Origin: an uncultured Verrucomicrobiales bacterium
GTDB taxonomy: Bacteria; Verrucomicrobiota; Verrucomicrobiia; Limisphaerales; UBA1100
DNA: 33,997 nucleotides
Direction: 5' to 3'
Assembly (NCBI GenBank): GCA_913041895.1
Contig: CAJWKQ010000011.1
Coordinates: forward strand, 1 to 33,997
A model generated the notes under the pieces. The model was not told where the DNA came from. It worked only from the letters and a program-made list of their open reading frames with translations, and searched no databases. Shown here piece after piece: positions 2,157-31,987 of this stretch. Numbering within the stretch: the first letter of the stretch is position 1; every line of letters begins with the position of its first letter. Made by a program: the position numbers and the translations under genes.

Positions 2157-5100
2157 ATGAAAACTACCTCAATAGCTTTTTTCCTTCTGTTCAACACCCT
2201 TGTTTCCGCCAATGACTGGCCAACCTATCGCCACGACGGAAAACGCTCTGGGGTAACATCAGCCAATTTGCCCTCTCAACTATTTCCACAATGGAAGTTT
2301 CAATCCCTCCACGCCCCGCGCACAGCCTGGCCATTGCCCGGGGAGGAAACACTCCGGATGCATAGTGATCGAGCTTACCAAGTAGTATCCGCAGGAAAAA
2401 CACTTTACTTTGGTAACAACGTAGACAACCACGTTCATGCTCACGATACACGAACCGGCAAACGCAAATGGAGCTTTGCCACCGACGGGTCAGTTCGATT
2501 TGCACCATTCATCAATGAGGAACGAATATATTTTGGCTCAGACGATGGCCACATCTATTGTGTGGATGCCGAAAAGGGCACTCAAATATGGAAATACCGA
2601 CTCGGTCCCAGTGGAGAGCAGATTATTGGAAGGGGCCGCATGGTTTCCCTTTGGCCAGTAAGGACCGGTGTCTTGGTGGAAGATGGGGTTCTATATGCCG
2701 CCGCGGGAATTTTCCCTCACGAAGGTCTATATATTGTAGCCATAAATATCAAGACAGGTCGACCAATCTGGGTAAATGACACGGTTGGTGATCAAGCCTG
2801 GGGGTTGCTGTATGGAGGCGTAGCCCCACAGGGCTACGTGGTAGCTTCTGATGATACAGTTTTTATACCTGCGGGACGAAGTATGCCCGTAGCCTTCGAC
2901 AAGCGCACCGGCAAATTCAAACGTTTTCTCTCTGGCGGCGGCAAAACCGGCGGATCATGGACTATGATAGATCAAGGCCAGCTATTTGCTGGAAACAATA
3001 ATCAAGGAACAGATACTAAAATTGCCTTTAATGCCAATAGTGGTTCAAGACAAAGCGACCAATTTTCCAGCTTTCCTTCCAATGATATGGTATTGACCAA
3101 AAACACCGCATTTATTGCCACAGAAAAAGGCATCTACTGCATTGATCGTGCTGCCAATCTCAAAGCTAACTCCGTAGTCCCAAAATTGGATAAAGAATCA
3201 ACAACACTGGCAAAAAACATCGTTGAGATTCGAAAGAGACATAAGGCCGCAAGTGATAAGCCTGAGGAGCTCGAAAAAATAACGAGTGAACTCAATAAGG
3301 CCACCAATCGACTCACAACCATAGCTAAAGAAAAAAGTGCCCTCAATTCAGCTCGCGTGAAGTGGTTCACCCCCCGAAAAGGACTTGCCACAATGTCGCT
3401 CGCCGGCAAAACGCTTTTTGCTGGAGGAAATGGATTTGTGATTTCACTGGAAGTCGCATCAGGCAAACTTGTGATGGATCATCCTATTGAAGGCAACGCG
3501 GTTAGCATGGCGGTTGCCGATAATCGGCTATTTGTCAGTGGCGACAATGGATTCATCCATTGCCTAGGAGCTCAAGCCTCTCAGGGAAATGGGCGATTAA
3601 TCAAAGAAGCATCACAACCCATTGACGATCAAGGTATCAAGGATCAAGCAGATAAGATATTGGAATTATCTGATATCAATCAAGGCTGGTGTCTTGTAGC
3701 CGGTGCACGTGACGGAAGATTAGCTGAGTATCTGGCCTCAAATACAAAGCTCAATTTTGTAGTAATTGAACAGGATGCCAAAAGGCTCGCAGCAATCCGC
3801 GCGCGATTGATGAAAACTGGATTATTGGGAGACCGTGTGATTGCCGTTAACTGGCCGTATAGTGATTTACCTGATTACTTTGCCAATCTGATTACTTCGG
3901 AGCGCGCCATATTGGGTGAAGAAGTCAATTTGCCCATAAGCCAACTTGCTCGAGTTCTGCGCCCCTCCGGAGGAAAACTGGTGTTGGGGCCAGTAAACAA
4001 ATGGGCACCTACAGCTCTGGAAAAAATCAAAAATGGGCTATCGGCAAATGCCGCTTCAGAAACTAAATCTCAAACCATAGATAACTACTTCCTTTTTACT
4101 CGCGGAAAACTTAATGGCGCAGGGAGCTGGACTGGACTTTACGGAAATACAGCCAACACCTCTTCAACCCCTGATAAGCTCGTTAAAGGGCCTCTCGGTG
4201 TGCTGTGGTACGGTGAGCCTGGAAGTGAAGATATGGTTGGGCGCCACGCGCGCGCGGCCAGTCCATTAGCGATTAATGGTCGACTCTTTATGCAGGGAGC
4301 GGAAGTGGTGATGGCCTATGATGCCTATAATGGAACATTTCTGTGGAAACGTAAAATTCAAGGAGCCGTAAGAGTGCGAGTAGATGTGGATGGCTCTAAT
4401 ATTACTGCAACTGATGAGTCCATCTTCGTGGCCACCCACAACCGAGTCCTTCAGTTGGATGCACAAACAGGAAAGACAACTCGCGAATTTCAAGTCCCAA
4501 GGAAAGAAACCGATAAGGCATTGCGCTGGGGATATATCGCTGTACATGACAACATTTTAATCGGCACAGGCGCAACTCCTCTGGCGCAGGAATATGGTTA
4601 TCTCTGGAACTCACTCGTAAAAGATGGCAAATGGGTTGATGAAAAAAATGCCCCCAAGTCAGCTTTGTCCACATTGAAAAAAGTAAAGGGATTACATGCC
4701 CTTCCTGATAAGCGTGCCTTTGCCTATTTCCAGCGTAACGACCTTCACTGGCGCTCAATGATTGCCAATGCTCCTGGTTGGCTGCCAGACCACAACCCTT
4801 CACCAGTAGATGAAAAGAAGATCATGACCAGCGAAAAGGTGTTCGCCTACAATATCACCACAGGTGAAAAATTGTGGGAACATGAGGGCAAAGACATTCC
4901 GAATATCTCATTGGTCATTGGTGAAGGCCGGGTTTATTTATTGAAAAATGATCTAGATGCACGGGAAAAAGCACAGGCCAAAGCCGCTACCGAGGCAAAC
5001 ATTTCTGCGGGCGTGTTCAAAGTGGAGCGCGAACAAAGAATGGATGAGAATACCAGAGATTATCGCCGAGTAGTGTGTCTTGATATCAAGACGGGTCACA

Positions 5101-6680
5101 CGCTGTGGAGTCGTCCGTACGACCTAACCGGTAGTGGTGGCACAAAACTTGGCCTAGCTTACCAGAGCGGCAAGTTGCTCGCATTTGGCCATTATAGCAA
5201 TCACGACGAAGGCCCTTTCAATAACACTAAGGATAAAGATAAAGATGGTTATGCTGAAAACCTCAATTGGCGCCGCATTACCGTCATTGATGGTGGGGGC
5301 GGTAGTTTAATGTGGAGTAAACCTCTTAATTATCGCAGACGCCCAACAATTATGGGTAACACGATTTATATCGAACCGCGTCGATGTGATCTGGAAACCG
5401 GTGAAATCCAACAACGCAAACATCCGATTACCGGAGAGTCTGTCGAATGGGAATTCCTGCGCCCCGGTCACAGTTGTGGAATTGTGACAGCGACACCTCA
5501 CAATCTTTTCTTCCGCTCTTACAGTGGAGCTATTGTGAATACCGAGCAGGATTCTGGCCTTCAGCTTTTTGGAGGCCTTCGACCGGGTTGCTGGAACAGT
5601 ATGATACCGGCTAATGGCTTGTTAAGTATGCAGGAAGCAAGTGCCGGCTGTACCTGTAGCTATTCATTACGCACAACGGTGGTGCTAAAGAATAAGCCAC
5701 AAAAAGGCCATGCTGAATGGGCAGTATTTATTTCACAGGCAGCCACTAAGCCCGTTGAACATATGGCAATTAATTTTGGGGCTCCTGGTGATATGCGTGA
5801 TCGCGCAGGCACCGTCTGGTTTGGATACCCACGGCCAATAACAAACAAAGGGCAAGGGGGTTTTAATAATTATGGAATCAAATTTAATTTAAAGGAGGAG
5901 GGTGCCACCGAAGTGATTCAGCGTGATTGGCGTAACGTAAAATTGAATGGAACACAAAAACCTTGGATTTATACATCTGCCTTGAAAGGAATGACTAAGC
6001 TTAGCGTGCCTCTCTTGGATAAAGGGAAAGCAGGTAAATACACAGTTCGCTTAGGCTTTACGCCATTGCCGAATGATAAACCCGGCAGTCGTGTTTTTGA
6101 TATTAAACTCCAAAGTAAAGTGGTTTTACGCAATTTTGATGTGATGAAAAGTACTGGAGGAATAGGCAAAGTAATCATTAAAGAGTTCGAAGGAATCAAT
6201 GTTGAAGAAAATCTATTGATAGATTTGATCGTTCCAAACTTAAAGAGTTCTACCGCCATTGACGTTGACAAAACGCTGCATCATTTGGGTGATAACGTAG
6301 TTGCTGGATGGACTGAATCATCTCCCGAGCCAAAAGGTTTTGAGCTAAAGATACCCTTTGAGTTTGAGGGCTCCGAAGATGCTTATTCGTTGGCAATCGA
6401 GCAGCATGATGTACATAACGATTGGGCCGTGAAATTAAATGGCCGTGAAATTGGACGTTTGAAAAGGGATACAACCAAGCAAATAACTATGCTTACAGTT
6501 CCTGAGGGGCTGTTAAAACAGGGAGGCAATCAGCTATTCATCAATGTCCTAGGAAGCAGCAAGGATGATATTCAAGTGGGTAGAATAAAGTTGGTTTCAG
6601 GGCACCCTGCGTCGACCGTTATTCAGTCGCTTGAAGTTATTCGCGAGGATGGCCCAAGAAAAGTTGCCAATAAGCCCTAG
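2157..6680 (+). CDS. Giant exported propeller / methyltransferase-like / propeller / malectin-like protein
   Basis: The start at 2157 is preferred over in-frame ATGs at 2064 and 2127 because it places a clean signal peptide (MKTTSIAFFLLFNTLVSA) directly before NDWPTYRHDGKRSGV, the same mature N-terminus as the protein at 14025. The 1507 residues divide into an N-terminal PQQ-type propeller (about 19-480) interrupted by a charged coiled coil (about 342-402), a methyltransferase-like Rossmann domain (about 495-620, loop VAGARDGRLAEYL, then VIEQD), a second propeller (about 650-1170), a malectin-like segment (about 1220-1400, YTVRLGFTPLP) and a final jelly-roll-like domain with an LNGREIG strand. 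RPGC (C1145) and CTC (C1165, C1167) close the second propeller. The methyltransferase glycine loop is degenerate, so SAM binding is doubtful. No terminator follows, and the next gene starts 53 bases on, so it probably heads the operon. Likely a periplasmic or surface protein; its substrate is unknown. Confidence 0.88.
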   Translation: MKTTSIAFFLLFNTLVSANDWPTYRHDGKRSGVTSANLPSQLFPQWKFQSLHAPRTAWPLPGEETLRMHSDRAYQVVSAGKTLYFGNNVDNHVHAHDTRTGKRKWSFATDGSVRFAPFINEERIYFGSDDGHIYCVDAEKGTQIWKYRLGPSGEQIIGRGRMVSLWPVRTGVLVEDGVLYAAAGIFPHEGLYIVAINIKTGRPIWVNDTVGDQAWGLLYGGVAPQGYVVASDDTVFIPAGRSMPVAFDKRTGKFKRFLSGGGKTGGSWTMIDQGQLFAGNNNQGTDTKIAFNANSGSRQSDQFSSFPSNDMVLTKNTAFIATEKGIYCIDRAANLKANSVVPKLDKESTTLAKNIVEIRKRHKAASDKPEELEKITSELNKATNRLTTIAKEKSALNSARVKWFTPRKGLATMSLAGKTLFAGGNGFVISLEVASGKLVMDHPIEGNAVSMAVADNRLFVSGDNGFIHCLGAQASQGNGRLIKEASQPIDDQGIKDQADKILELSDINQGWCLVAGARDGRLAEYLASNTKLNFVVIEQDAKRLAAIRARLMKTGLLGDRVIAVNWPYSDLPDYFANLITSERAILGEEVNLPISQLARVLRPSGGKLVLGPVNKWAPTALEKIKNGLSANAASETKSQTIDNYFLFTRGKLNGAGSWTGLYGNTANTSSTPDKLVKGPLGVLWYGEPGSEDMVGRHARAASPLAINGRLFMQGAEVVMAYDAYNGTFLWKRKIQGAVRVRVDVDGSNITATDESIFVATHNRVLQLDAQTGKTTREFQVPRKETDKALRWGYIAVHDNILIGTGATPLAQEYGYLWNSLVKDGKWVDEKNAPKSALSTLKKVKGLHALPDKRAFAYFQRNDLHWRSMIANAPGWLPDHNPSPVDEKKIMTSEKVFAYNITTGEKLWEHEGKDIPNISLVIGEGRVYLLKNDLDAREKAQAKAATEANISAGVFKVEREQRMDENTRDYRRVVCLDIKTGHTLWSRPYDLTGSGGTKLGLAYQSGKLLAFGHYSNHDEGPFNNTKDKDKDGYAENLNWRRITVIDGGGGSLMWSKPLNYRRRPTIMGNTIYIEPRRCDLETGEIQQRKHPITGESVEWEFLRPGHSCGIVTATPHNLFFRSYSGAIVNTEQDSGLQLFGGLRPGCWNSMIPANGLLSMQEASAGCTCSYSLRTTVVLKNKPQKGHAEWAVFISQAATKPVEHMAINFGAPGDMRDRAGTVWFGYPRPITNKGQGGFNNYGIKFNLKEEGATEVIQRDWRNVKLNGTQKPWIYTSALKGMTKLSVPLLDKGKAGKYTVRLGFTPLPNDKPGSRVFDIKLQSKVVLRNFDVMKSTGGIGKVIIKEFEGINVEENLLIDLIVPNLKSSTAIDVDKTLHHLGDNVVAGWTESSPEPKGFELKIPFEFEGSEDAYSLAIEQHDVHNDWAVKLNGREIGRLKRDTTKQITMLTVPEGLLKQGGNQLFINVLGSSKDDIQVGRIKLVSGHPASTVIQSLEVIREDGPRKVANKP

Positions 6681-6733
6681 AGTGGTTAGTGATTTCGCCC
6701 GATTGATTAGTTGCAGCAGTTGATTATATTGAG

Positions 6734-8266
6734 ATGAAGACCCCCGTTAAATTCGCCGCTGTCTCGTTAGTAGTTATTATTGGCCTAGTGGCTTACATGG
6801 CACGAGATACCCATTCCGTTGATGAACGAATCTCCTCAGGCTCCACTTCATCTTCAGATGCCAATACCATTGAGTTCTATTGTGCGGCGGGAATGTCTAA
6901 ACCCGTGGATGAGATCATTGCAGCTTACCAAAAAGATTATCCGGATCGTAAAGTTGAGGTGAGTTACAGTGGGTCGGGTACGTTACTCACGAAAATCAGG
7001 GCGCAAAACAGCGGCGATTTATACCTGGCAGCAGATTCCAGCTATGTTCATATTGCACAAGAAAAGGGAATCGCTGAAGAATCTATTCCTGTAGCCCGCT
7101 TGTGGCCGGTTATTGTGGTGAAAAAAGGTAATCCTAAGAAAATTCTTAAGGTTGATGACCTACTGCGTGAAGATGTTCGAGTAAATCTTGGAAACCCTGA
7201 AGCAGCCAGCGTCGGTAAAAAAACAAAAAAACTAATGACCAATCTAGGCAAGTGGGGACCTTTACTTGAAGCAGTCGATGCCCGAGGAAACTTCAAACCA
7301 ACTGTTAATGAAATCGCCAATGATGTAAAAATTGATGCTGCGGATGCTGCCATTGTATGGAACTCAATTGCCAGTCAATATCCCGAACTAGAATCAGTTG
7401 AAATCGAAGGTGCCCCAATAGGGGTTGTAACAGTTTGCGTGCTAAAGTATGCAACTCTCCCGCGTGCAACACTACACTTCGCACGGTACTTATGTGCAGT
7501 TGATAAAGGTCTGAATATTTTCAGGAAACACGGCTTTGAAGCAGCCGAGGGGGATGTATGGGATGAGCAGCCCAATATAGTTTACTTTGCTGGCGGACTT
7601 AACCGCCATGCTGCTGAACCCATTATTTCCGCATTCGAAAAACGCGAAGGTTGCACTGTTGAAACAACTTGGATGGGTTGTGGGCTTCTGGTGAGTAAAA
7701 TGAAGGGCGGTGAAACACCGGACGTATACCATACCTGTGACGCTTCGTTTCATACCATGGTTGAAGATCGGTTCGGAAAGCTAATTAATATTTCGCAAAC
7801 GGACATAATCATTTTAGTACCGAAAGAAAACCCCAAAAACATAAAGTCATTGGAAGATTTAACAAAGCCGGGAATGAAGGTGGGAATTGGTGATCCTGAA
7901 AAAACTGCGATGGGCAAACTCACGATAGACCTGTTGAAGGACGAAGAAATCTATAACGAAATTAAGCCAAATATTGGCAATCCTTTTCCTGAAGCGCCGA
8001 TGGTTGTAGGACAGGTTACCCAAGGCGCATTGGATGCCGGATTGGTGTACGTAGCTAATGCCCATGCCCAGCGTGACAAGGTAAAAATGATCCGCATTGA
8101 TAATCCTCTTTCGAGTGCTACTCAAACTTATGCCATCAGTAAAACTTCGAAGCACAAACATCTAATGCAGCGCTTGCTGAGTCGTCTGCAATCATCAACC
8201 GGTCAGGAGAACTTCATTAACGCGGGCTTTGAGATAATCGAAAACCTCGGTTTAGACAATGAGTAG
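6734..8266 (+). CDS. Membrane-anchored tandem ModA-like substrate-binding protein
   Basis: An N-terminal hydrophobic helix (residues about 7-24, no lipobox) is followed by two consecutive ModA/type II periplasmic-binding domains, at about 45-262 and 280-505. Domain 1 has the usual ModA landmarks: strand EFYCAAGMSKPV, an SYSGSG loop near residue 77, and LYLAADSSY. Domain 2 repeats the layout (IVYFAGGLNRHAAEPI) but has MGCG (C316) where domain 1 has SGSG, and YHTCD (C335) where domain 1 has YLAAD. Normal ModA proteins are single-domain and about 250 residues, so this is a duplication or fusion. It should deliver an oxyanion-like or metal-containing ligand to the permease encoded next, whose gene it overlaps by 8 bases. 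Molybdate or tungstate is a family-based guess. The cysteine changes argue that domain 2 binds something else or has another role. Confidence 0.9.
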   Translation: MKTPVKFAAVSLVVIIGLVAYMARDTHSVDERISSGSTSSSDANTIEFYCAAGMSKPVDEIIAAYQKDYPDRKVEVSYSGSGTLLTKIRAQNSGDLYLAADSSYVHIAQEKGIAEESIPVARLWPVIVVKKGNPKKILKVDDLLREDVRVNLGNPEAASVGKKTKKLMTNLGKWGPLLEAVDARGNFKPTVNEIANDVKIDAADAAIVWNSIASQYPELESVEIEGAPIGVVTVCVLKYATLPRATLHFARYLCAVDKGLNIFRKHGFEAAEGDVWDEQPNIVYFAGGLNRHAAEPIISAFEKREGCTVETTWMGCGLLVSKMKGGETPDVYHTCDASFHTMVEDRFGKLINISQTDIIILVPKENPKNIKSLEDLTKPGMKVGIGDPEKTAMGKLTIDLLKDEEIYNEIKPNIGNPFPEAPMVVGQVTQGALDAGLVYVANAHAQRDKVKMIRIDNPLSSATQTYAISKTSKHKHLMQRLLSRLQSSTGQENFINAGFEIIENLGLDNE

Positions 8267-9518
8267 CACGCCGACCCCGGACTCTCCTTCTCAGTTTCGA
8301 CCTAAATCCGACACGGCTTTCTTTTTTGGATTAGGTTCTCTAGGTGGTTTCTATTTGTTTCTGATCATATCTTTAATCTTGGCGCTGGTAATTGTTCCGC
8401 GTTGGGGCAAGAGCGACGAAACTAAATTATTATTAATGTCTCCTTCCATTAGGGAAGCCATTAAATACCTTGAGGCTGCCAATCAAAAAGCAAATGGAAC
8501 GGTTGTGGCAATTGGGTTGGAGCAAGCTCTTAAAGAAACGCGTCTATTAGACGAACCTCCATTTGATGGGCGGTCCATGGCCGACCGAATCAATTACATT
8601 TCCGCTGAGGCCCGGTCATTAGCCAATATCAAACTTAGTGAGCTGGTTAAAAAGGCTGAATCTGGAAACGTGGACATTGAAAGAGAACTTGGTTTGGCAA
8701 AAAACTCCCTTCTTGATGCTGTTGCAATTGATCGCCCAAGTGATTATTCGGCTGTATTTAATGATCCCAGGATTCGGTCATCTGCCAAGCTCAGCTTTGT
8801 TTCCTGTACCATTTCCGCACTATTATCACTATGGGTTGCCGTCCCCATTGGGTACACCATGTCGCGCTTCCAGTTTCGCGGCAAAAACTTTATCGACACC
8901 ATTCTTGATGTTCCTATCGTGCTGCCTCCGCTTGTTATCGGGCTCGGATTATTGATTCTCTTTAACAACATCTCGTTTGGAACCATGGATGTCACCTACT
9001 TTGATCGTGATGGAAGCCAATATATTGTTCAGGAAAACCGCACAATTGAGCGCATGATCAAACAAGCCGGTGAATCCTTTGGCCTTCAATTGAGAATTAC
9101 CAATGGGGCTGCGGGTGTGGTGTTAGCACAGTTTATGGTTGCCTGTGCCTTTGCCGTACGCACCATGCGCAACACTTTTGATCAAATAAGCCCACGCCAG
9201 GAAGAAGTAGCAATGACATTGGGCAGTTCACGTGGTGAGGCCTTTTGGAGCATTGTCCTGCCACAAGGTTATCGTGGACTAATGGCTGCAGGCACCTTGG
9301 CTTGGGCAAGATCTCTCGGAGAATTCGGTCCTATTTTAATTTTTTGTGGTATCAATGCACACCGCACTGAAGTGATGTCTTCTTCAGTCTATCTACAGTT
9401 CAGCATCGGTGAAATTGAAAAGGCTGCGGTAGTCTCACTCCTAATGATTGCCCTTGCCTTCGTAGTCCTCCTGCTTGTTCGTAACTTAGGCAAAAGTGAT
9501 GCCGCACCCCAACGATGA
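8259..9518 (+). CDS. ModB-like ABC transporter permease with long N-terminal extension
   Basis: This is an inner-membrane permease of the binding-protein-dependent transport family. Its C-terminal half holds the cytoplasmic coupling (EAA) loop: EEVAMTLGSSRGEAFWSIVL, followed by ARSLGEFGP, which closely resembles ModB/CysT permeases. ModB is usually about 230 residues. This protein has 419, with an extra first transmembrane helix (about 22-48) and a soluble, helical segment (about 49-168) that probably lies in the periplasm. There is also an extra hydrophilic loop (about 233-275) between core helices. These additions could dock the unusual two-domain binding protein. The ATG overlaps the end of the upstream gene, and the stop overlaps the ATPase start (ATGA), so translation is probably coupled across all three. 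The permease family is certain; the transported ligand is not. Confidence 0.92.
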   Translation: MSSTPTPDSPSQFRPKSDTAFFFGLGSLGGFYLFLIISLILALVIVPRWGKSDETKLLLMSPSIREAIKYLEAANQKANGTVVAIGLEQALKETRLLDEPPFDGRSMADRINYISAEARSLANIKLSELVKKAESGNVDIERELGLAKNSLLDAVAIDRPSDYSAVFNDPRIRSSAKLSFVSCTISALLSLWVAVPIGYTMSRFQFRGKNFIDTILDVPIVLPPLVIGLGLLILFNNISFGTMDVTYFDRDGSQYIVQENRTIERMIKQAGESFGLQLRITNGAAGVVLAQFMVACAFAVRTMRNTFDQISPRQEEVAMTLGSSRGEAFWSIVLPQGYRGLMAAGTLAWARSLGEFGPILIFCGINAHRTEVMSSSVYLQFSIGEIEKAAVVSLLMIALAFVVLLLVRNLGKSDAAPQR

Positions 9519-10165
9519 TTCAGCTCGAAAACCTTTGTCTTCGCAATGGCTCCTTTGAGCTGAATGATCTGTCTGTAAAGATTACCAACGGGTCCTATGG
9601 GATTCTTATGGGACGCACGGGTTGCGGTAAGACAACCATCTTGGAAGCTATTTGTGGTCTCCGGCCTCATGTCATGAGTGGCACCATCTGGCTAAATAAC
9701 AACGATGTTACTGAGCTGAAGCCTGCCGAACGTGGCATCGGATATGTTCCGCAAGATAGTGCCCTATTTGAAACAATGTCGATCTTTGATAATGTTGCCT
9801 TTGCACTTAACCTACGCAATTGGAACGAGGCTGATATCCAAAAACGTGTTTATGAACTGGCGGAGTTGATGGCTATAACGAAACTTCTTGATCGTCTGCC
9901 CTTTGGATTGAGTGGGGGAGAATCTAAACGGGTTGCTTTAGCTCGTGCGTTAGCTGCATCACCCGGCGTCCTCTGCCTTGATGAACCCTTGAGTGCATTA
10001 GACGAGCAAACTCATGGTGAAATTTGTGATCTACTCGTTGAACTTCATCGCGAAATAGATGTTACAATTCTTCATATCACGCATAGTTCTGCTGAGGCCA
10101 AGAGACTTGGGGAAACCTTTATACGACTTGAGGATGGACAGCTTAATGAAGGAAGCCTTGAATGA
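9515..10165 (+). CDS. ModC-like ABC transporter ATPase, minimal form
   Basis: This is the cytoplasmic ATPase that should drive the permease encoded just upstream. Visible motifs are Walker A GRTGCGKTT (residues about 33-41), Q-loop YVPQDSALF, signature LSGGESKRVALARAL, Walker B VLCLDEPLSALD and the switch histidine in ILHITHS. The signature has ESK where most importers have ERQ. At 216 residues it lacks the C-terminal MOP/TOBE domain that senses molybdate in classical ModC (about 350 residues), so regulation by bound oxyanion is not expected. It shares four bases with the upstream gene and three with the MoeB-like gene downstream, placing an adenylyltransferase inside the transporter operon. 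The ATPase assignment is secure; the ModC label is by gene order and similarity only. Confidence 0.93.
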   Translation: MIQLENLCLRNGSFELNDLSVKITNGSYGILMGRTGCGKTTILEAICGLRPHVMSGTIWLNNNDVTELKPAERGIGYVPQDSALFETMSIFDNVAFALNLRNWNEADIQKRVYELAELMAITKLLDRLPFGLSGGESKRVALARALAASPGVLCLDEPLSALDEQTHGEICDLLVELHREIDVTILHITHSSAEAKRLGETFIRLEDGQLNEGSLE

Positions 10166-10929
10166 TGAATGGATCTGAAAATCTTCCCGAATTAAACGAT
10201 GCTGAGAGGGAAATTTATTCCTGGCAAACCACGGTGGATGGATTCGGAGAGGAAGGTCAGCGCAGGTTAAAGAATGCGAGCGTAATGATCAGCCGAATCG
10301 GAGGGCTTGGAGGATTGGTTGCCTATGAGCTGGCAGCTGCGGGGATTGGAAAGTTAATTCTTGCGCATGGAGGTAACCTGAAGCCATCTGACTTGAACCG
10401 CCAGTTACTGATGAAGGATGAAGCGTTGGGTTCTCCACGCATCAACTGCGCGATGGAGCGCTTAAAGGAACTCAACCCGAGATTGGAAATCATTGGTTTA
10501 GCTGAAAATGTTACTGATTCAAACATCTCCAGCCTAGTATCGGAGTCGGATATTGTCGTAGATTGTGCCCCATTATTTGAAGAGCGTTATTTGATGAACC
10601 ACGAAGCGTTTGCACAGGGTAAACCTATTGTGGAATGCTCTATGTTTGAAATGGAGGCGCATATCACCAGTTTCAAACCGGGTTTAACAGGATGCTTGAA
10701 ATGTCTTTATCCTGAAAAACCCGATTATTGGCAGCGTCGTTTCCCGGTTTTCGGAGCTGTCTCAGGTATGGTCGGTTGCTTGGGGGCAATGGAAGTAATT
10801 AAAATAATTGTTGAATTGGGAGAACCTTTGTTCGGTCGATTATTGACCTGCGATTTGAAATCAATGAAATTTCAACAGGTGCGCATACAGCCAGTTGCTG
10901 ACTGCACAGTGTGTGCCGCTGCAAAATGA
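10162..10929 (+). CDS. MoeB/ThiF/HesA-family E1-like adenylyltransferase
   Basis: Family members activate the C-terminus of a ubiquitin-like sulfur carrier (MoaD, ThiS) with ATP. The N-terminal Rossmann part has ISRIGGLGG (residues 43-51). The usual first glycine of GxGGxG is R45 here. The substrate arm retains LNRQLLM (R80, Q81), and DIVVDCAPLFEERYLMN matches the conserved E1 aspartate region. Zinc ligands are visible as CLKC (C178, C181) and CTVC (C248, C251). The segment PVFGAVSGMVGCLGAMEVIKI is typical of MoeB. Length (255) is normal for MoeB. No ThiS/MoaD-like small protein ending in GG occurs in this window, so its partner is elsewhere, or the enzyme acts on something else. Linkage to a ModABC-like importer suggests metal-cofactor chemistry, but this is inference. 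A second ATG lies at 10165. Confidence 0.9.
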   Translation: MMNGSENLPELNDAEREIYSWQTTVDGFGEEGQRRLKNASVMISRIGGLGGLVAYELAAAGIGKLILAHGGNLKPSDLNRQLLMKDEALGSPRINCAMERLKELNPRLEIIGLAENVTDSNISSLVSESDIVVDCAPLFEERYLMNHEAFAQGKPIVECSMFEMEAHITSFKPGLTGCLKCLYPEKPDYWQRRFPVFGAVSGMVGCLGAMEVIKIIVELGEPLFGRLLTCDLKSMKFQQVRIQPVADCTVCAAAK

Positions 10930-12119
10930 AAAAACTAGCTCTCATTTTTGCCTGCTTGATTTCAATAGACGCACTGGCATGCCGTTTTAATGTCAGAGAT
11001 GTAGGTTTTGTGGATTTGGGTTCTGAGCCTTACCGTTTGTTTATATTTGTTCCAGAAGGAACCCCAACCTCTGAAATGGAATTACTCGAGTCAACCGCGT
11101 ATGCCACTTATCTTGATTCCAATGTAAAGGCTTCGGTCCTAAGTCCAAAGGATGCCTTCAAAGGCAAAGCTGCACAATTTGTCCCGAGGGAATTAACACA
11201 GGCACAAGCGGTGTTGGTATCACCTGATGGAAAACAGTCATTACCGGTAAAGTTATCCGCAGAAGGAAAGCCTCTAGCGGTATCTGCTTGGGATGGACTT
11301 GAGTCGGTGTTTGATTCGGAGCGCCGCAATTCAGTTATTTCAAAGGTGTACGAACACTATTGTGTGATTCTGATCATGGAAGGCAAAAACATTGAGGAAA
11401 ACCAAAGAATTCGGGACCTAGCCAATAGGGTTGTGAAATCGATAAGCGGTCAGATGGACAAACTCGAGAAAGAAATCCGAGAACCCCCGGTAGTAGAGAT
11501 TATTTCAATCAAGGACTTCAATTCTGAAAAGGCGTTTCTTTGGAGCATGGGAATCACTGAGATATCGGAAACTCCACAGGTCGCCATACTGTATGGCCGT
11601 GGCCGAATGATTGGCCCAGTCTTGCGTGATGAGCGACTGGATGAGCGCTCGCTTAAAGCGATAGTCAACACGATCGGCCTAAACTGTGAGTGTGGCTTGG
11701 ATCGTAAATGGATGCAGGGAACCATGGTGCCGCAAAAATGGGATGAAGATTTACAAAAGCGATTTGCCAACCAACTCGGTTTTGACCCCGAAAGCCCAGC
11801 AATTCGATTGGAAATGAGTCAAATCTTAGCTAAAGGTGGCAAGGGTCAAGGAACCAACAGACAAACACCCATCGGAGGCTCACTTGATGATTTACTGATG
11901 GGCTATCGTGAAGGATCATTAAAAGAACCTGAAGCCCAAGAACCACAAACATCTGTTGAGCAGAAAAACACCGATCCCGAGAAACCCATCACCACAGAAG
12001 TAAAACCGACAAAACCACCTCAATCACGTTCAATGATTGGATGGATAATGATTGCTGGAGCTCCTATCCTTTTGGCCGGCTGCGCTATATTAATTTTCGC
12101 ACGTAACAAAAACTCATGA
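10926..12119 (+). CDS. Periplasmic, C-terminally anchored protein of unknown family
   Basis: The start at 10926 (ATGA overlap with the upstream stop) gives a clean signal peptide, MKKLALIFACLISIDALA; an ATG at 10911 would spoil it. The mature protein begins CRFNVRDVGFVDLGSEPYRL. This is not a canonical lipobox. Residues about 20-330 are soluble and alpha/beta in character, with two halves that each end in a beta-rich, possibly thioredoxin-like run (for example QVAILYGRGRMIGPVL). A CECGLDR motif sits near residue 260. A Pro/Thr/Glu-rich linker (about 330-370) leads to one transmembrane helix near the C-terminus (SMIGWIMIAGAPILLAGCAI) and a short tail. This topology puts the body in the periplasm, held to the inner membrane. 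It lies between the MoeB-like gene and an FtsX-type permease and overlaps both, so it probably belongs to the same machine. I do not recognise the family. Confidence 0.85.
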   Translation: MKKLALIFACLISIDALACRFNVRDVGFVDLGSEPYRLFIFVPEGTPTSEMELLESTAYATYLDSNVKASVLSPKDAFKGKAAQFVPRELTQAQAVLVSPDGKQSLPVKLSAEGKPLAVSAWDGLESVFDSERRNSVISKVYEHYCVILIMEGKNIEENQRIRDLANRVVKSISGQMDKLEKEIREPPVVEIISIKDFNSEKAFLWSMGITEISETPQVAILYGRGRMIGPVLRDERLDERSLKAIVNTIGLNCECGLDRKWMQGTMVPQKWDEDLQKRFANQLGFDPESPAIRLEMSQILAKGGKGQGTNRQTPIGGSLDDLLMGYREGSLKEPEAQEPQTSVEQKNTDPEKPITTEVKPTKPPQSRSMIGWIMIAGAPILLAGCAILIFARNKNS

Positions 12120-13402
12120 ATCCACTAACGCTGATTGTTAAGGAAATTACCCATCGCAAAGCGAATGCGCTTTTGAGTTTGCTTGCGATAACTATAGCAG
12201 TAGCTTTAGTCGTAATATTTTTTAGCGTTAGTCAGGGAACGCAACGTGAGCAAGCAGAGATCCTCGATGACATGAATGCATCAACGGATGAAATATCACA
12301 ATCCACCCAGAAAAAAACAAAGAGGATTCAACGAGATATGGGTCAAAACCTCCGTATTGTCTCCGAAGAAACCGATTTAGCACATTTTTGGGATGAAGGG
12401 TTTTCAAAAACAACTTTTCCAGAGGACTGGCTCCAACAATTTACAAACGTTACCAAGCAGATCAACTATTCCCATCTATCAGCCATTTTAAAATGGAAGA
12501 TCGATTGGCGCGGTTCACCAGCCATGATTTATGGCCTAGCCCCTCGCGAAGTCGCCCCACCTGGCCGGGAAAAACCGATCATGATTACACCGGTAAAGCG
12601 AGGGACTGTACAGCTAGGCAAAACAATTGCCGAAATCCACAATGTTAAGCGTGATGATGTGGTAAAAGTTGAAAACGGAGAATTCGAGGTAGACCGCGTG
12701 TTAGCAGAAAAAGGAAGCGGTGCTGAAATTCGGATCTATATGCACTTGGCAGATGCGCAATCGGTATTAGGCCGAGAAGGATTAATTAATGAAATCCAAG
12801 CACTCGATTGCTACTGCGCCGATGAATCACAGGATACTTTAACGCTACTACGCGAGCAACTGGCTCCAATTTTACCTAAAGCTAAAGTGTTTCGAATGCA
12901 GGATATGGCGGAGGCCCGTGAACAACAAAGGCGTCTGATGGAGGCTCAATTAGGAAAGGCCATGCCTAAAGTGATTGATGAGGCAATCCAGTCACAAACT
13001 AATAATTTGGAGAAGACTTTTACCAAAATACTTCCGGTGATGGTCTTTCTCTGCGGTTTGTCCGTCGCTACTTTAGCGATGCTTAACACACGGGATCGAA
13101 GACAAGAAATCGGTGTTTTTAGAGCCCTTGGGCATGGAGGTATGCACATCGCCATATTATTCCTTGGTAAAGCAGTTGCCATTGGGATTGCCGGCGCAAT
13201 CATTGGCTATGGGGTTGGTGGATATTTAACTTTAAACTTTGGACAGGAGCTATTCGCTTTAACAAAAGCTCAATTGGGATGGGAACCTTCCCTGCTTATT
13301 GAAGCACTGTGGTTGGCCCCGGCCTTTGCAGCTCTTGCGACATTCATCCCAGCGATGTTGGCTGTAGTCCAGGATCCTGCCGATACTCTACGTCACGATT
13401 GA
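12116..13402 (+). CDS. FtsX/LolC/MacB-like ABC permease
   Basis: The protein has one N-terminal transmembrane helix (about 15-40), a large periplasmic domain (about 41-300) and three C-terminal helices, the standard layout of the FtsX-like permease family. The C-terminal part contains NTRDRRQEIGVFRALG, the conserved segment after the second helix that contacts the ATPase. Such permeases pair with LolD-type ATPases and work in lipoprotein extraction, macrolide or peptide efflux, or mechanical signalling across the envelope. They rarely act as importers. The periplasmic domain has a helical, glutamine-rich region (residues about 260-300) and a DCYC motif near residue 237. The gene overlaps its upstream neighbour by four bases and the next gene, the cognate ATPase, by one. 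A role in handling the exported propeller proteins or their ligand is possible but unproven. Confidence 0.92.
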   Translation: MNPLTLIVKEITHRKANALLSLLAITIAVALVVIFFSVSQGTQREQAEILDDMNASTDEISQSTQKKTKRIQRDMGQNLRIVSEETDLAHFWDEGFSKTTFPEDWLQQFTNVTKQINYSHLSAILKWKIDWRGSPAMIYGLAPREVAPPGREKPIMITPVKRGTVQLGKTIAEIHNVKRDDVVKVENGEFEVDRVLAEKGSGAEIRIYMHLADAQSVLGREGLINEIQALDCYCADESQDTLTLLREQLAPILPKAKVFRMQDMAEAREQQRRLMEAQLGKAMPKVIDEAIQSQTNNLEKTFTKILPVMVFLCGLSVATLAMLNTRDRRQEIGVFRALGHGGMHIAILFLGKAVAIGIAGAIIGYGVGGYLTLNFGQELFALTKAQLGWEPSLLIEALWLAPAFAALATFIPAMLAVVQDPADTLRHD

Positions 13403-14025
13403 TGATCACCTGCACACAAGTTACGAAACGTTTTGGTGATGTCACTGCGCTAGCACCTTTTGATCTCAATATGGAGAAGGGTGAATTTGTGGCTATTAAA
13501 GGCGCAAGTGGAAGCGGAAAAACAACCCTCCTTCTCGCCTTGGGTGGAATGCTTCGACCCACTGAAGGAGAAATCAAATACAAAGGTGCTAATTTATATG
13601 AGTTATCATCTTCGGAACTCGGAAATTACCGATCCAATGAGGTAGGCTTTGTATTCCAAATGTTTCACTTGGTGCCTTACTTAAATGTCGAGGAAAACGT
13701 GCTGCTCGCAGTTTCAAATGGTAATCAAGCAAGCCAGCCACTTGAGTTATTGAACCAATTTGGTTTATCTGACCGTTTAACGCATACTCCGAGCGAACTT
13801 AGTGCTGGAGAAAGGCAACGCGTAGCTCTGGCCCGCGCATTAATAAACCAGCCAGAAATCATTTTGGCTGATGAACCTACCGGCAACTTGGATCCTGAAA
13901 ATGACCGGCAGGTCTTTAAACACCTGTCTGAATACCATAAAAAAGGTGGTACGGTAGCTGTTGTAACCCATGGTTCGACTGCGGATGAATTTGCTGATAG
14001 AATAGTAAGTTTGAAAGCTGGATAG
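13402..14025 (+). CDS. LolD/MacB-type ABC transporter ATPase
   Basis: The start is set at 13402, where ATG overlaps the upstream TGA by one base (TGATG). An in-frame ATG at 13309 would extend far into the permease gene and give a sequence unlike the family. The 207-residue protein has Walker A GASGSGKTTL, Q-loop FVFQMFHLVPYLNVEENV, signature LSAGERQRVALARAL, Walker B IILADEPTGNLD and switch histidine VVTHG. The Q-loop pattern and the DEPTGNLD Walker B are characteristic of LolD/MacB/FtsE ATPases, which fits the FtsX-type permease immediately upstream. The signature has LSAGE in place of LSGGE, a common variant in this subfamily. The stop codon shares its last base with the GTG start of the following propeller gene. 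Confidence 0.93.
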   Translation: MITCTQVTKRFGDVTALAPFDLNMEKGEFVAIKGASGSGKTTLLLALGGMLRPTEGEIKYKGANLYELSSSELGNYRSNEVGFVFQMFHLVPYLNVEENVLLAVSNGNQASQPLELLNQFGLSDRLTHTPSELSAGERQRVALARALINQPEIILADEPTGNLDPENDRQVFKHLSEYHKKGGTVAVVTHGSTADEFADRIVSLKAG

Positions 14026-15377
14026 TGAGGATTTTACTAATATTTATTGCTGTTTGCACCCATGCAGCTGATTGGCCAACCTATCGTGGAGATGATGCTC
14101 GCAGTGGGGTTTCCCTAGAGCAATTGAATCTCCCTCTGGAGCAATCGTGGATTCACCAACCCCTTCATGCTCCTCGCCCGGCATGGCGCGGTCCAGCCAA
14201 GGCAGATCTATATAATAAACAGTTTAACCTTAAGAATCGTCAATTGTTTGACCACGCGTTTCATGTAATTGCAGATGGACAATCAGTATATTTTGGCTCT
14301 TCTGCTGATGATCAAGTCCATTGTCTTGATTTCAATTCAGGAAAAAAACGTTGGTCTTATTTTACTGAAGGCCCTGTCCGTTTTGCTCCCACCTTGTATG
14401 AGGGGCGTCTTTTCGTCGGCTCAGATGATGGCTACGCATACTGCCTTTCCACAGAGGGAAAATTAATTTGGAAAAAAATGCTGTCTCCTCGTGAGTATCG
14501 TATTGTCGGCAATAACCGTATGATTTCGGCGTGGCCACTGCGAACAGGTATTTTGGTTAGAGATGGTGTTGCTTATGCTGGAGCAGGAATGTTCCCAAAG
14601 GAAGGAATGCATATTGTGGCCTTTGATCCCAAAAACGGCACAGATCGTTGGCGAACTATTCAGAATTCGTGGCCTTTTCAAGGGTATTTATTACTTTCAG
14701 AAAACCGCGTATACGTACCTACCGGCCGAAGCAACCCTATCGTATACAATCGTAACAATGGCAAATTCTTCAGAGATCTATCTAAAACAAACGACGCATT
14801 CACCTTAATTAAGTGGAACGGAAAACCACTGCCAAATCCACGCCAAAACAGTCGAGTTCTTGGGGTGTTTGGTGAGGGAAATGGTGACTCCTTTGCAACC
14901 TTTACCGGCAATCACATGATTGTGGCCGATGGCAAATCCTACCTGCAAGCGAACGGTGAATTAAGTGTTCTTGATCGCATGCGCTATATCAAACTGGAAC
15001 GCGACTACAAAGCGCAAGCGGCAAAACGTGAACAACTTGGCAAGACACTGGCTCAACTACGAAAGCAGAAATCACCAGAGGTACCCAAGGTACAACAACA
15101 ACTCATAGCATCGGGTCAGGCATTAGGAGAGATCCAAAAAGGTATAGATAATTGTGTCCTTTGGAAAACACCTTGTAATCAGTCTTATGCAATGATTCTA
15201 GCCGGAAACATGCTATTTGCAGGAGGTAATAGTGAGATAGTCGCCTATTCAGCAAACGATGGAAATAGGGTTTGGAGCGCGCCAGTTAACGGACGTGCTT
15301 TGGGTATTGCAGTTGCACATGGTCGACTCCTTGTAAGTACAGATAAGGGAACCATTCACTGTTTTGAATCAAAATGA
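14025..15377 (+). CDS. Exported PQQ-type beta-propeller protein, counterpart of the N-terminal half of the 2157 protein
   Basis: The start is a GTG sharing one base with the upstream TAG. It gives a short signal peptide (MRILLIFIAVCTHA) before ADWPTYRGDDARSGV. The whole 450-residue protein aligns by eye with residues 19-480 of the protein at 2157: LHAPRPAW, VRFAPTLYEGRLFVGSDDG, MISAWPLRTGILVRDGVAYAG and a C-terminal 'S-x-DKGTIHCF' match in order. It keeps the charged coiled-coil insertion (about 319-380) between propeller blades. Glycine-aspartate-tryptophan repeat strands such as 'NGTDRWR' and 'DGNRVWSAP' are typical of BamB/PQQ-like propellers. No dehydrogenase catalytic motif was seen, so PQQ binding should not be assumed. 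It overlaps the next gene by four bases, and the two products probably form a complex corresponding to the fused protein. Confidence 0.9.
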   Translation: MRILLIFIAVCTHAADWPTYRGDDARSGVSLEQLNLPLEQSWIHQPLHAPRPAWRGPAKADLYNKQFNLKNRQLFDHAFHVIADGQSVYFGSSADDQVHCLDFNSGKKRWSYFTEGPVRFAPTLYEGRLFVGSDDGYAYCLSTEGKLIWKKMLSPREYRIVGNNRMISAWPLRTGILVRDGVAYAGAGMFPKEGMHIVAFDPKNGTDRWRTIQNSWPFQGYLLLSENRVYVPTGRSNPIVYNRNNGKFFRDLSKTNDAFTLIKWNGKPLPNPRQNSRVLGVFGEGNGDSFATFTGNHMIVADGKSYLQANGELSVLDRMRYIKLERDYKAQAAKREQLGKTLAQLRKQKSPEVPKVQQQLIASGQALGEIQKGIDNCVLWKTPCNQSYAMILAGNMLFAGGNSEIVAYSANDGNRVWSAPVNGRALGIAVAHGRLLVSTDKGTIHCFESK

Positions 15378-18274
15378 AGAAACTATTGGCCATCTTACTT
15401 TTGCTCAGCCTCAACCTTTCCGCGGCGGAGGAAGGACTGCTACATCAGTGGCGTTTTGACCAAACAAAGAACGGGAAAGTTCCAGCTAAAATTGGAAATC
15501 CAGCAAACTATAGCGGTGCGGTTCAACTGATAAAAGAAAATGGCTTAAGCCGATTGCAACTCAAAGGTACAGACAGTCGAGTCTGGGTAACTGATGATTT
15601 TAATACGGTTAAGGTACCTCAAAAAGCCATTACCGTTGAAGCGTGGATAAACCCAGCTGCTAGCATGCGCTGGGGAGGGATAGCAGGAGTTATTCAGGAT
15701 AACGGAAGCTATGAACGCGGCTGGTTACTAGGTTATGTAAATCGTAAATTCTCTTTTGCCCTCGCTAGCGAGGGACATAAACTTTTAACGTATTTACAGG
15801 GAACCACTGATTTTAAGGATAATTTCTGGTATCATGTCGTAGGAACCTATGATGGCAAAACCTTAAAAGTATTTGTTAATGGCAAACTCGAAGCCAACGA
15901 GGAGAAGCATTCGGGAAATATCATTTATCCTCCGAAAGCAACATTTGAACTGGGAGGTTACAAGGATGATAATGAATTTTACCGTGGAGCTCTCAGTCTT
16001 CACGAGGTTTCCGTTTATGAGAAAGCTCTGAGTGCAGAAGCCATCTCCAAAAGATTTAGAACTCGCAAAAACGAGTTCCCATTACCCCCTGAACCATTAA
16101 CTTTTAGTTCCTACCCCCAATTGCGATGGAAAAACAGGGATACTCTGCAAATGGAGTGGGAGTTACACGATCCATTGCCAGTGGAAATTGAATGGAAACA
16201 CACTGGCGAAGCAGAAGTAAGAAAACTTAAGACTAAAGCAGGTAAAAAAGGCTTAGGCCTTATTGACCAACTTCAATCGGAAGGGGAGCACCTTTACCGC
16301 CTTACAGCACGAAATCAAGCTGGGGCAACATTTGCCAGCGAATGGTATAAATTTGATACTTCTTTTTATTACCGGCTTCCCCCAAAACCCAAAATACCCA
16401 ATCCCTTTTTAGATGACAGTAAGATGAAGATGGCAGCGTCTGCTGCCAAAAGAATCCTCTCGAAAGATAATATAAACCAAGGTTACGCGTTAGTAATCGG
16501 GAGTGCTGAAGGGCGGCTGGCGTATGAATTGGCCAAACAAACAGAATTACAGGTGGTAGTGGTGGAACCGGATAAAACCAAAGCAGAGGCTGCCCGAAAT
16601 GCACTTGCCCAAGCCGGATTGTATGGGAATCGCGTAAGTGTTCACCAGCGTGATCTCAATCATCTTCCTTATGGGCCTTATTTTGCAAACCTAATTACAT
16701 CAGGCAGTATGCTTAGTGAAGGTAGTTTACCCATTGAAGATGCTTCGCAATTAATGCATCTACTAAGACCTGCTGGTGGGATTTTGATGCTAGGGCACAT
16801 GAGCGGAAAACTGAATGACCAACTAATCAAATCTTGGCTCAAGAAAACTGGTGTTCAATACACTGTTTCCCAGAACGATGAAGGACTTTGGGCATATGTA
16901 AAACGTCCCAAACTGGAAGGCGCTGGAGATTGGACCCATCAATACGGATCAGCCGATAATACAACCAATAGCCGTGATGACCTTGTCCGGGGGGAGATGG
17001 AAATTTTATGGTGGGGCGAGCCCGGCCCACGCCCGATGCCTGATCGAGGAGGTCGTAACCCTGCTCCTTTAGCTGCCAATGGGCGCATGTTCGTGCAGGG
17101 TGATCGTGTGCTTTTCGGACTGGATGCTTATAACGGCACCGTTCTATGGACATTTTTCTCGCCTGAAATGCGCCGCTCAAATATGCCTCGCGATGGATCC
17201 AACATGGTGGCAACGGATGACACGCTCTTTATTTCTATAGGTGGTGAATGCATTGCACTCGATGCTCAAACCGGCAAGAGAAGACTTTCAATAAAGACAC
17301 CGAAAGACCGGGAAGTAGGCTGGGCATCAGCTACCAATAAGCAACTGCTCACCACCACAGTAAAGCCAGGTTCAGAATATAGAGCTGATGTAGGCGAATG
17401 GTATGATGCTGCGAAGAAAGCCAGCGATATTGCCCGTATGGTTTCTGATTCACTGGTGAGCCACGATTCGGTTACCGGAAAGCAACAATGGTCCTATCAA
17501 GGTGGTGCAGTCATGAACTCTACCATTACCATTGCCGAGGAGATCATCTATTTTGTTGAGAGCCGGAATGCAAAATTAAGCCAATCATCTAACAGCCGGG
17601 TTGCCCCGGCAGAACTAACATCCCAATACCTCGTTGCTTTAAATAGCGTGAGCGGAGAAAAGCTTTGGGAGAAACCCGTAAACTTCTCCAAGTGCGAGAA
17701 CATGCTTTATCTCATTCATTCTCAGGGAACATTGGTTGCCTCAGGGAGCGATCAAAACAAGAAGTACCATATCTATGCTTATGATGTCAGCTCACCTGCA
17801 TTACGCTTTGGCACAGAGAATCCTGAAATCCCCGAATTATGGCGTAAGAGTGCCGAGGGATCTGGGTCCAAAGGAGATGGGAATAGATACAATCATCATG
17901 GAGGTCATCTACAACACCCCTTGGTGGTTGGTCAGACCTTGTATTCAGATTGGCGCGCTTTTGATCTCCGCAGCGGTGATCGTAAGAATATTACCGTCCC
18001 GGAAAGACGGGGGTGCGGCAACATGGCTGCCAGTAATCATAGCATGTTTTACCGGCATCATTCCCAAACAATGTGGGATTTGAATACCGGCAAAACAACA
18101 ACCCTTCAGGGCTCCCGTACCGGATGCTGGCTGGGAATGATCCCTGCACAAGGATTAATGTTGGCCCCTGAAAGCAGCGGAGGTTGCTCTTGTGATAAGA
18201 GCGATATATCAATCCAAACTTCAGCAGCCTGGATCCCCAAAGCCAGCCTCTTTAGACCCAAAAAGGATCAGTAA
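15374..18274 (+). CDS. Exported LamG / methyltransferase-like / PQQ-type propeller protein
   Basis: The signal peptide is MKKLLAILLLLSLNLSAAEE. Residues about 25-225 form a LamG/concanavalin-like lectin domain (AITVEAWINPAASMRWGG, VGTYDGKTLKVFVNGKLE, YRGALSLHEVSVYEKALS). A short beta-rich linker domain follows (about 235-330). Residues about 350-475 form a methyltransferase-like Rossmann domain with a degenerate glycine loop, ALVIGSAEGRLAYEL, then VVVEPD. Residues about 500-960 form a PQQ-type propeller ending in RTGC (C918)...PAQGL...CSC (C938, C940). From the Rossmann domain onward it is collinear with residues 495-1190 of the protein at 2157, but it lacks that protein's malectin-like tail. 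LamG domains bind glycans or proteins outside the cell. This is the last gene of the overlapping operon; no hairpin terminator follows. The biochemical role is unknown. Confidence 0.9.
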   Translation: MKKLLAILLLLSLNLSAAEEGLLHQWRFDQTKNGKVPAKIGNPANYSGAVQLIKENGLSRLQLKGTDSRVWVTDDFNTVKVPQKAITVEAWINPAASMRWGGIAGVIQDNGSYERGWLLGYVNRKFSFALASEGHKLLTYLQGTTDFKDNFWYHVVGTYDGKTLKVFVNGKLEANEEKHSGNIIYPPKATFELGGYKDDNEFYRGALSLHEVSVYEKALSAEAISKRFRTRKNEFPLPPEPLTFSSYPQLRWKNRDTLQMEWELHDPLPVEIEWKHTGEAEVRKLKTKAGKKGLGLIDQLQSEGEHLYRLTARNQAGATFASEWYKFDTSFYYRLPPKPKIPNPFLDDSKMKMAASAAKRILSKDNINQGYALVIGSAEGRLAYELAKQTELQVVVVEPDKTKAEAARNALAQAGLYGNRVSVHQRDLNHLPYGPYFANLITSGSMLSEGSLPIEDASQLMHLLRPAGGILMLGHMSGKLNDQLIKSWLKKTGVQYTVSQNDEGLWAYVKRPKLEGAGDWTHQYGSADNTTNSRDDLVRGEMEILWWGEPGPRPMPDRGGRNPAPLAANGRMFVQGDRVLFGLDAYNGTVLWTFFSPEMRRSNMPRDGSNMVATDDTLFISIGGECIALDAQTGKRRLSIKTPKDREVGWASATNKQLLTTTVKPGSEYRADVGEWYDAAKKASDIARMVSDSLVSHDSVTGKQQWSYQGGAVMNSTITIAEEIIYFVESRNAKLSQSSNSRVAPAELTSQYLVALNSVSGEKLWEKPVNFSKCENMLYLIHSQGTLVASGSDQNKKYHIYAYDVSSPALRFGTENPEIPELWRKSAEGSGSKGDGNRYNHHGGHLQHPLVVGQTLYSDWRAFDLRSGDRKNITVPERRGCGNMAASNHSMFYRHHSQTMWDLNTGKTTTLQGSRTGCWLGMIPAQGLMLAPESSGGCSCDKSDISIQTSAAWIPKASLFRPKKDQ

Positions 18275-18441
18275 CACCACACTGACTCGATTGTCCGTTG
18301 GGTTCGATTCCCATCACCCGCTCGATCTCGATTTTGGTGCACAAAACAGGACTAATTTACTAGTTCGGACTGTTTTAATGACTGAATAAATTCGACCCTT
18401 CTGAGGTCTTAATATATAATTATGCCTGATTTAAAGGGGTG
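18275..18441. other. Intergenic region with tRNA-Gly 3'-end fragment (18295-18325)
   Basis: Bases 18299-18323 read like the T-arm and 3' acceptor strand of a bacterial tRNA-Gly: TGGG stem, TTCGATT loop, CCCA stem, then CACCCGCTC. The expected 5' half (GCGGGTG and D-arm) is absent upstream, so this is not a tRNA gene. Such 3' fragments are often left by elements that integrate into tRNA genes, or mark one end of an island. No integrase or second copy is present in this window. The rest of the gap is AT-rich near 18408-18422 (AATATATAATTATG) and could hold the promoter of the DUF1552 operon. An AAAGGGG stretch at 18433-18439 could serve as its ribosome binding site. Confidence 0.5.
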
Positions 18442-22349: not shown

Positions 22350-22367
22350 TAACTCAAAATTATTTTT
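22342..22367. terminator. AT-rich hairpin between convergent genes
   Basis: AAAAATAAT at 22342-22350 and ATTATTTTT at 22359-22367 are perfectly complementary (9 bp, 8-base loop) and overlap the stop codons of both converging genes. The T-run on each strand fits a bidirectional intrinsic terminator. The stem has no G-C pair, so it is weak and may depend on help or be fortuitous. Confidence 0.35.
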
Positions 22368-25683: not shown

Positions 25684-25793
25684 AATGCTGGAGGGTAATA
25701 GCGATATAATTGCCGAAAAGCAATCCAATTAGGCCTTTAAATTAGGTATGAATTGAATTTCGGATGTTGGGGAAATATGGCAAAAATTACTTT

Positions 25794-26954: not shown

Positions 26955-27001
26955 GTCTTAAGTTAGTGCTCCATTAATATAACATGAGCAATAACAAATG
27001 T

Positions 27002-27036
27002 CGTAAAAAAACATAAAAAATACGCAAAAAAACATA
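27002..27036. promoter_or_regulatory. Candidate XylR/AraC operator, direct repeat with 21-bp phasing
   Basis: CGTAAAAAAACATA at 27002-27015 and CGCAAAAAAACATA at 27023-27036 differ by one base and start exactly 21 bp apart. This is two helical turns, the spacing used by AraC-family activators. A second copy of the whole element lies at 33406-33440. Bases 26999-27033 and 33403-33437 match at 33 of 35 positions, spacer included. The position between the divergent regulator and the ankyrin/GH128/sulfatase operon fits a shared operator. The second half-site runs into CATAATAT, which could act as a -10 element. Confidence 0.65.
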
Positions 27037-27174: not shown

Positions 27175-27181
27175 CTTATTT

Positions 27182-29756: not shown

Positions 29757-29791
29757 AAAAAGAGAACCAAGAATTAAAACCGAAATATAAA

Positions 29792-30448: not shown

Positions 30449-30469
30449 TAATGATCGACATAGGTTCTG

Positions 30470-31966: not shown

Positions 31967-31987
31967 AATTTTTATCTGAAAAGAATA

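Follow-up and report, generated by a model that had tools for sequence, protein, structure and literature searches.

Gene content and arrangement of the locus

The window, by which we mean the whole stretch of 33,997 nucleotides analyzed here, is one contig (C11) of an 81.5%-complete, 3.17-Mb draft genome of an uncultured Verrucomicrobiales bacterium. A run of ten forward-strand genes opens with prop1 (2157–6680), which encodes a giant exported protein containing PQQ-fold repeats, a methyltransferase-like Rossmann stretch, a malectin domain, and a GCxC motif (~5649–5657). A gap of 53 bp separates it from nine overlapping genes, the first three of which specify an importer of the ModABC type: a membrane-anchored tandem ModA-like binding protein, ModA2, with two SBP_bac_11 domains (6734–8266), a ModB-like permease extended near its N-terminus by ~120 amino acids (8259–9518), and a ModC-like ATPase of 216 amino acids (9515–10165). 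These are followed by a HesA-like protein of the E1-like fold family, earlier read as MoeB/ThiF-like, in which the zinc CxxC pairs are kept and the catalytic residues of MoeB are replaced (10162–10929). The next three genes encode peri (10926–12119), an exported protein with a C-terminal membrane anchor, an invariant Cys19 (10980–10982), and a CxC pair (11685–11693); an FtsX-type, MacB/LolC-like permease (12116–13402) with an invariant DCxC motif (12806–12817) in its extracytoplasmic domain; and a LolD/FtsE-like ATPase (13402–14025). Two further exported proteins complete the run, prop2 (14025–15377), a PQQ-fold propeller without CxC, and prop3 (15374–18274), which combines LamG, a methyltransferase-like stretch, and a PQQ-fold propeller with a GCxC motif (18185–18193). 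From ModA2 through prop3, consecutive genes overlap by 8, 4, 4, 4, 4, 1, 1, and 4 bases. The order, strands, domain types, and 1–8-base overlaps described in the first-pass annotation were reproduced when the coordinates were recomputed on the window.

A fourth propeller gene, truncated by the contig end, diverges from the run on the reverse strand (2–2044) and encodes a methyltransferase-like domain, PQQ-fold repeats, and a CxC near the C-terminus; its membership in the unit is uncertain. It is also divergent in two relatives that share the gene order. One, L033, was assembled from a single cell of an uncultured Verrucomicrobia bacterium and has all ten genes at 92–99% identity per protein; in the other, a metagenome-assembled genome (MAG; L034), the contig ends after the seventh. 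Because the single-cell assembly is separate and the MAG independent, the arrangement is no assembly artefact, and the gene run is very likely real and conserved. Promoter and terminator scans of the locus gave signals no clearer than those of shuffled sequences, and an Rfam scan of the window and 16 related loci returned a single tRNA and no riboswitch or metal-regulatory RNA.

A DUF1552/PSCyt pair (18439–22349) starts 164 bp downstream of prop3. Its genes are 66% and 55–60% identical to genes flanking the cluster in a family of another lineage, f41 (L118 16789–19999; L119 2–1468), and were not matched at the cluster loci of their own order, Limisphaerales; the likeness may reflect linkage, transfer, or chance. 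Farther 3′ lie genes for a Tricorn-like protease, an AraC-type regulator with a sugar-receptor domain, an ankyrin protein, a glycoside hydrolase-like protein, and two sulfatases (22360–25728 on the reverse strand and 25794–33385), none of them conserved with the unit.

Conservation and co-occurrence across Verrucomicrobiota

A seven-gene core (tandem ModA, ModB, ModC, HesA-like protein, peri, FtsX, and LolD) is present, sometimes permuted, at 15 loci, of which nine belong to Limisphaerales (seven families plus the single-cell assembly) and six to other lineages; the neighbors flanking the core are unrelated between loci. Permuted versions with all seven genes occur in another class (L082, L083, L087, and L089) and in family f41 (L117 and L119). 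The nine-gene run from ModA2 to prop3 is colinear in several families (four loci, ~30–60% identity), a fifth such run is interrupted by a contig end, and two loci hold the same genes in a different order. A shorter version, HesA-like–peri–FtsX–LolD with no adjacent ModABC, is found at three loci. Clear peri relatives occur in 29 of 146 Limisphaerales genomes, two more matches being marginal, and a divergent peri, adjoining FtsX and LolD and often near tandem or split ModA, ModB, and ModC, in 38 of 193 genomes of the other class. The HesA-like gene is accompanied by ModB and ModC at 41 of the 57 retrieved loci that hold it, and several of the remainder end at contig ends. This census comprises loci retrieved by a peri or HesA-like match and is conditional on that choice; HMM cut-offs were set by the analyst and gene calls were mechanical.

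Apart from a MoeB-rhodanese gene at a few loci, no further conserved gene was found around the unit. A single-sequence peri search over the phylum, in a sample holding just two genomes of the order, returned only the source genome; a plasmid collection yielded no relative of peri or ModA2, and viral contigs none of the HesA-like protein. One weak peri match (L073) has no system genes adjoining and was left out of the case count.

Co-occurrence was assessed by Fisher tests in the 146 Limisphaerales genomes, with values that ignore shared ancestry and draft gaps. The HesA-like gene is present in 46 genomes and peri in 29, all 29 of them within the 46 (p = 5e-19, shared ancestry ignored). Propellers, scored as prop2 query matches with E up to 1e-60, occur in 43 genomes, 38 of which also bear the HesA-like gene (p = 1e-21, again ignoring shared ancestry). 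Both the co-occurrence and the conserved gene sets bear out the earlier proposal that the modules belong together. The contrary pattern, relatives with the parts in unrelated places, was seen only to a limited extent: in family f82, three separate pieces (ModABC–HesA, peri–FtsX–LolD, and prop1–peri) sit on separate contigs, but still within the same genomes.

The MoeB-like protein groups with HesA

In E. coli MoeB, R14, D62, K86, D130, and Cys187 are ATP-site and catalytic residues of MoeB/ThiF adenylation. Relative to that enzyme, the window protein has R14 replaced by W, a nucleotide-loop Gly by R, D62 by H, K86 by R, and D130 by P, and the catalytic Cys (C187) is absent; R73 and the zinc CxxC pairs are retained. 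The replacements are invariant in 14 sequences of Limisphaerales, motif checks concur in nearly all loci, and other lineages show the same changes, the zinc pairs being missing in three copies from the other class. All NCBIfam MoeB/ThiF cut-offs are missed (best score, 202 bits versus 449; TIGR02355, 148 versus 376). A search of the plasmid collection found its closest relatives among the HesA proteins of Nostoc and Pseudanabaena (46% identity), whose plasmid-borne genes adjoin modA, modB, and genes for molybdate-binding proteins or ModD and lie near nif genes. A 27-sequence tree places the window protein in a joint clade with HesA (support 100/100) that is separate from MoeB, ThiF, and UbaA. 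The protein is thus almost certainly HesA-like rather than MoeB, judging from its sequence, and a MoeB/ThiF adenylyltransferase identity is contradicted by the replaced residues, sub-cut-off scores, and HesA clade. The MoeB-like activation chemistry proposed in the first-pass annotation is therefore not supported, the catalytic residues being replaced throughout the family.

Cyanobacterial HesA (L131–L133) itself lacks the MoeB residues D62, K86, D130, and the catalytic Cys, which makes it unlikely that HesA takes part in FeMo-cofactor synthesis by MoeB-type adenylation. Nitrogenase in P. polymyxa depends on HesA; high molybdate or cystine partly suppresses the effect of losing this protein, for which E. 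coli moeB does not fully substitute (PMC6361004). This phenotype, taken with the HesA kinship, suggests handling of Mo and S that would dispense with MoeB-type adenylation, the best-supported analogy for the window protein. The window family resembles the HesA proteins of cyanobacterial, Paenibacillus, and Frankia nif regions in its link to modA/modB and in the loss of D62, K86, D130, and C187; it differs in the additional R14-to-W and nucleotide-loop Gly-to-Arg changes and in that most tested bearers lack nifD. In other lineages, HesA-like genes were read by eye near genes resembling CO dehydrogenase/acetyl-CoA synthase (L130 6252–13999) and near a cobalamin-type TonB/ABC uptake set (L129 11081–15635).

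Independence from molybdopterin and nitrogenase

A row of Mod-like genes ending in a ThiF-family gene invites the reading that the locus is an ordinary molybdenum-cofactor supply operon (ModABC plus MoeB) to which unrelated genes have become attached. MoaC is indeed present in most Limisphaerales genomes and shows a weak excess among bearers of the HesA-like gene (39/46 versus 69/100 others, p = 0.03). Two nearly complete bearers of ModB–ModC–HesA, however, G398 (97% complete) and G454 (98%), lack both MoaC and MoeA, and three same-genus or same-family genomes have MoaC and no HesA-like gene or cluster. In the source genome, an incomplete draft, MoeA is present, MoaC was not found, and the sole other ThiF-family protein is TcdA-like by sequence. 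Together with the HesA clade, the replaced MoeB residues, and the conservation of the supposedly attached genes, the bearers without MoaC and MoeA contradict molybdopterin supply, a reading that we reject as scarcely credible. As to nitrogenase, nifD is present in three of 22 tested bearers, G454 among them, and absent from the source genome, and the window contains no nif genes. The HesA-like gene is tied neither to molybdopterin nor to nitrogenase.

The ModABC-type importer

In E. coli ModA, molybdate is bound by the serines S12 and S39. Glycines align to both positions in domain 1 of ModA2, cysteines close to these loops are kept, and ModA2 also matches receptors of the PEB3/AcfC type. ModB and ModC are Mod/Wtp-like with scores below the equivalog cut-offs, and the 216 residues of ModC gave ATPase-type matches only, with no C-terminal regulatory TOBE/Mop domain found. 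The binding protein, permease, and ATPase accordingly match the families of the ModABC molybdate and WtpABC tungstate importers but depart from them in the fused tandem ModA, the glycines in place of serines, and the short ModC. The long form of ModB (8259–9518) is shared with L033–L035 and f82, where the protein is also ~420 amino acids, most others having 260–310. At L035 (6806–8227), ModA2 is just 34% identical to that of the window, its neighbors from ModC onward being 60–74% identical, a contrast that might result from a swap of the binding protein.

Because its partner is HesA-like, a molybdate-type oxyanion is the favored candidate for the imported ligand; because glycines replace the ModA serines and PEB3/AcfC receptors match, the ligand may instead be another anion. 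The latter observation opens the possibility of a system that would link import of an organic or sugar-type anion to the use of surface polysaccharide, in which lectin-like propellers would capture the substrate and the HesA-like protein would be a substrate-binding or regulatory leftover. The malectin domain of prop1, the LamG domain of prop3, and the sulfatases downstream in the window fit such a role. The unit has no conserved glycoside hydrolase partner, however, and the relationship to HesA and modAB speaks for molybdenum, so that this proposal seems to us improbable.

The envelope module

The FtsX-type protein has a C-terminal permease domain (PF02687, above cut-off) and a large extracytoplasmic domain, which places it in the type VII ABC (FtsX/MacB) superfamily. 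Its profile matches PDB chains of MacB, LolC, LolF, and YbbP, and the ATPase matches LolD; the cut-offs for LolCDE lipoprotein release are missed (LolD, 196 versus 307.75; LolCE, 30.6 versus 362). The pair thus resembles MacB, LolCDE, YbbAP, and FtsEX in family, but differs from them in the invariant CxC of FtsX, in its orphan CxC-bearing partner, and in scores below the LolD, FtsE, and MacB cut-offs. The D-C-x-C motif of FtsX is invariant in Limisphaerales. Elsewhere, 10 of 14 copies keep CxC; of those that lack it, all but one come from loci with duplicated FtsX genes. The N-terminal Cys of peri is likewise invariant in the order, and its CxC is present in 38/38 and 21/22 sequences. Of the secreted-like background ORFs from the same loci, 1/97 has CxC.

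Peri reached no Pfam cut-off, and a sequence search of the PDB gave no credible relative. An AlphaFold model built on three near-identical sequences is poor (mean pLDDT 47.5) and matches mostly tandem thioredoxin-fold proteins, a lead that peri is perhaps tandem thioredoxin-like. The CxC pairs may be metal sites, or they could form disulfides. Under the second option, peri, FtsX, and LolD would transport thiols or take part in their exchange and would introduce disulfides into the exported propellers, the importer serving as an accessory for a sulfur compound. The CxC pairs, the thioredoxin-fold matches, and the MoeB-rhodanese and ThiS-ThiF neighbors of some loci (L077, L082, L083, L087, and L089) speak for such a thiol-disulfide system. 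The confidence of the peri model is poor, though, the CxC in that model is not where a thioredoxin active site usually lies, and the kinship of HesA and modAB favors molybdenum; we judge the proposal rather improbable.

In the Zrg system, zinc is taken up with the help of MacB-like permease pairs (PMC9820375). Zrg (ZrgABCDE) and PA4063–PA4066 each couple an ABC pair having a MacB-like 4-TM permease to periplasmic metal-binding partners in metal acquisition (PMC9820375, PMC8561739). By these published descriptions, Zrg is comparable to the envelope module in its ABC pair, MacB-like permease, and periplasmic partners, and is distinguished by a His-rich ZrgA and the lack of ModABC, HesA, and propellers.

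The propeller proteins

Prop1, prop3, and the divergent propeller each carry CxC near the C-terminus, and prop1 and prop3 share a conserved cysteine set (C-G, GCW, and GCxC). Prop1 misses the cut-off for PQQ-dependent dehydrogenases (TIGR03075, 47 versus 480 bits), and the BamB cut-off is missed as well (69.5 versus 285). Propeller genes also lie within the cluster at five loci of other lineages.

By analogy with N2O reductase, a propeller enzyme for which NosDFY is the presumed helper ABC complex, one could propose that FtsX/LolD and peri build a metal or metal-sulfur center at the propeller cysteines, with Mo, W, or S supplied by ModABC and the HesA-like protein. The conserved cysteine set and the association of propellers with the HesA-like gene, including within clusters of other lineages, agree with such a maturation role. 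Prop2, however, lacks CxC; the divergent propeller shares it, so the motif may be general to this protein type; and in the other class, propellers are missing beside many of the clusters. We consider propeller maturation unlikely. Quite unlikely, too, is its fullest version, a dedicated non-pterin, non-nitrogenase pathway in which imported Mo or W would pass via a non-adenylating HesA-like protein and FtsX/LolD to a metal or metal-sulfur center on exported, cysteine-bearing propellers.

A proposed function for the three modules

Uptake of a metal or oxyanion linked to envelope proteins, as proposed in the first-pass annotation, is still the best frame for the locus. Within it, we assign a probability of about 0.4 to the reading that three modules couple the handling of a molybdate-type oxyanion to an envelope machine for metal or thiol chemistry. 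ModA2–ModB–ModC would import the oxyanion, which might be molybdate, tungstate, or similar, and the HesA-like protein would receive it or load it with sulfur in the cytoplasm, with no MoeB-type adenylation. The CxC-bearing peri, FtsX, and LolD would form a type VII (mechanotransmission) ABC machine for periplasmic metal or thiol chemistry, and the exported propellers, the large ones bearing CxC, would be its capture proteins or clients. The proposed substrate, flow direction, envelope-machine action, and propeller role are drawn from gene content and sequence.

We count in favor of this three-module reading the conserved seven-gene core, the co-occurrence values, the frequent company of ModB and ModC with the HesA-like gene, the plasmid-borne HesA relatives and the P. 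polymyxa phenotype, the CxC conservation, and the Zrg precedent, as well as the neighbors of some distant versions, namely a TonB receptor at two loci (L072 and L077), a CbiM-type protein at a third, FeoB and a DtxR-type regulator at a fourth, and MoeB-rhodanese; several of these neighbor names rest on sequence reading and not on family searches. We count against it the loss of the ModA serines, the PEB3/AcfC matches, the disulfide option for CxC, the shared ancestry that the co-occurrence values ignore, the Rfam result for riboswitches and metal-regulatory RNAs, and the separability of the modules in some genomes.

Implications

A literature search for this gene set found nothing. The parts belong to known families; as far as the searched literature shows, apparently neither their combination nor its breadth nor the altered HesA has been described before. 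The range of HesA-type proteins extends beyond nitrogen fixation: Verrucomicrobiota, in which most tested bearers have no nitrogenase, possess relatives whose active sites are altered further and which are tied to Mod importers. The locus offers a concrete gene set that links putative cytoplasmic handling of Mo and S to an envelope ABC machine and giant propeller proteins. If Mo or W were confirmed as the substrate, this would point to a use of the metal outside the two known cofactors.
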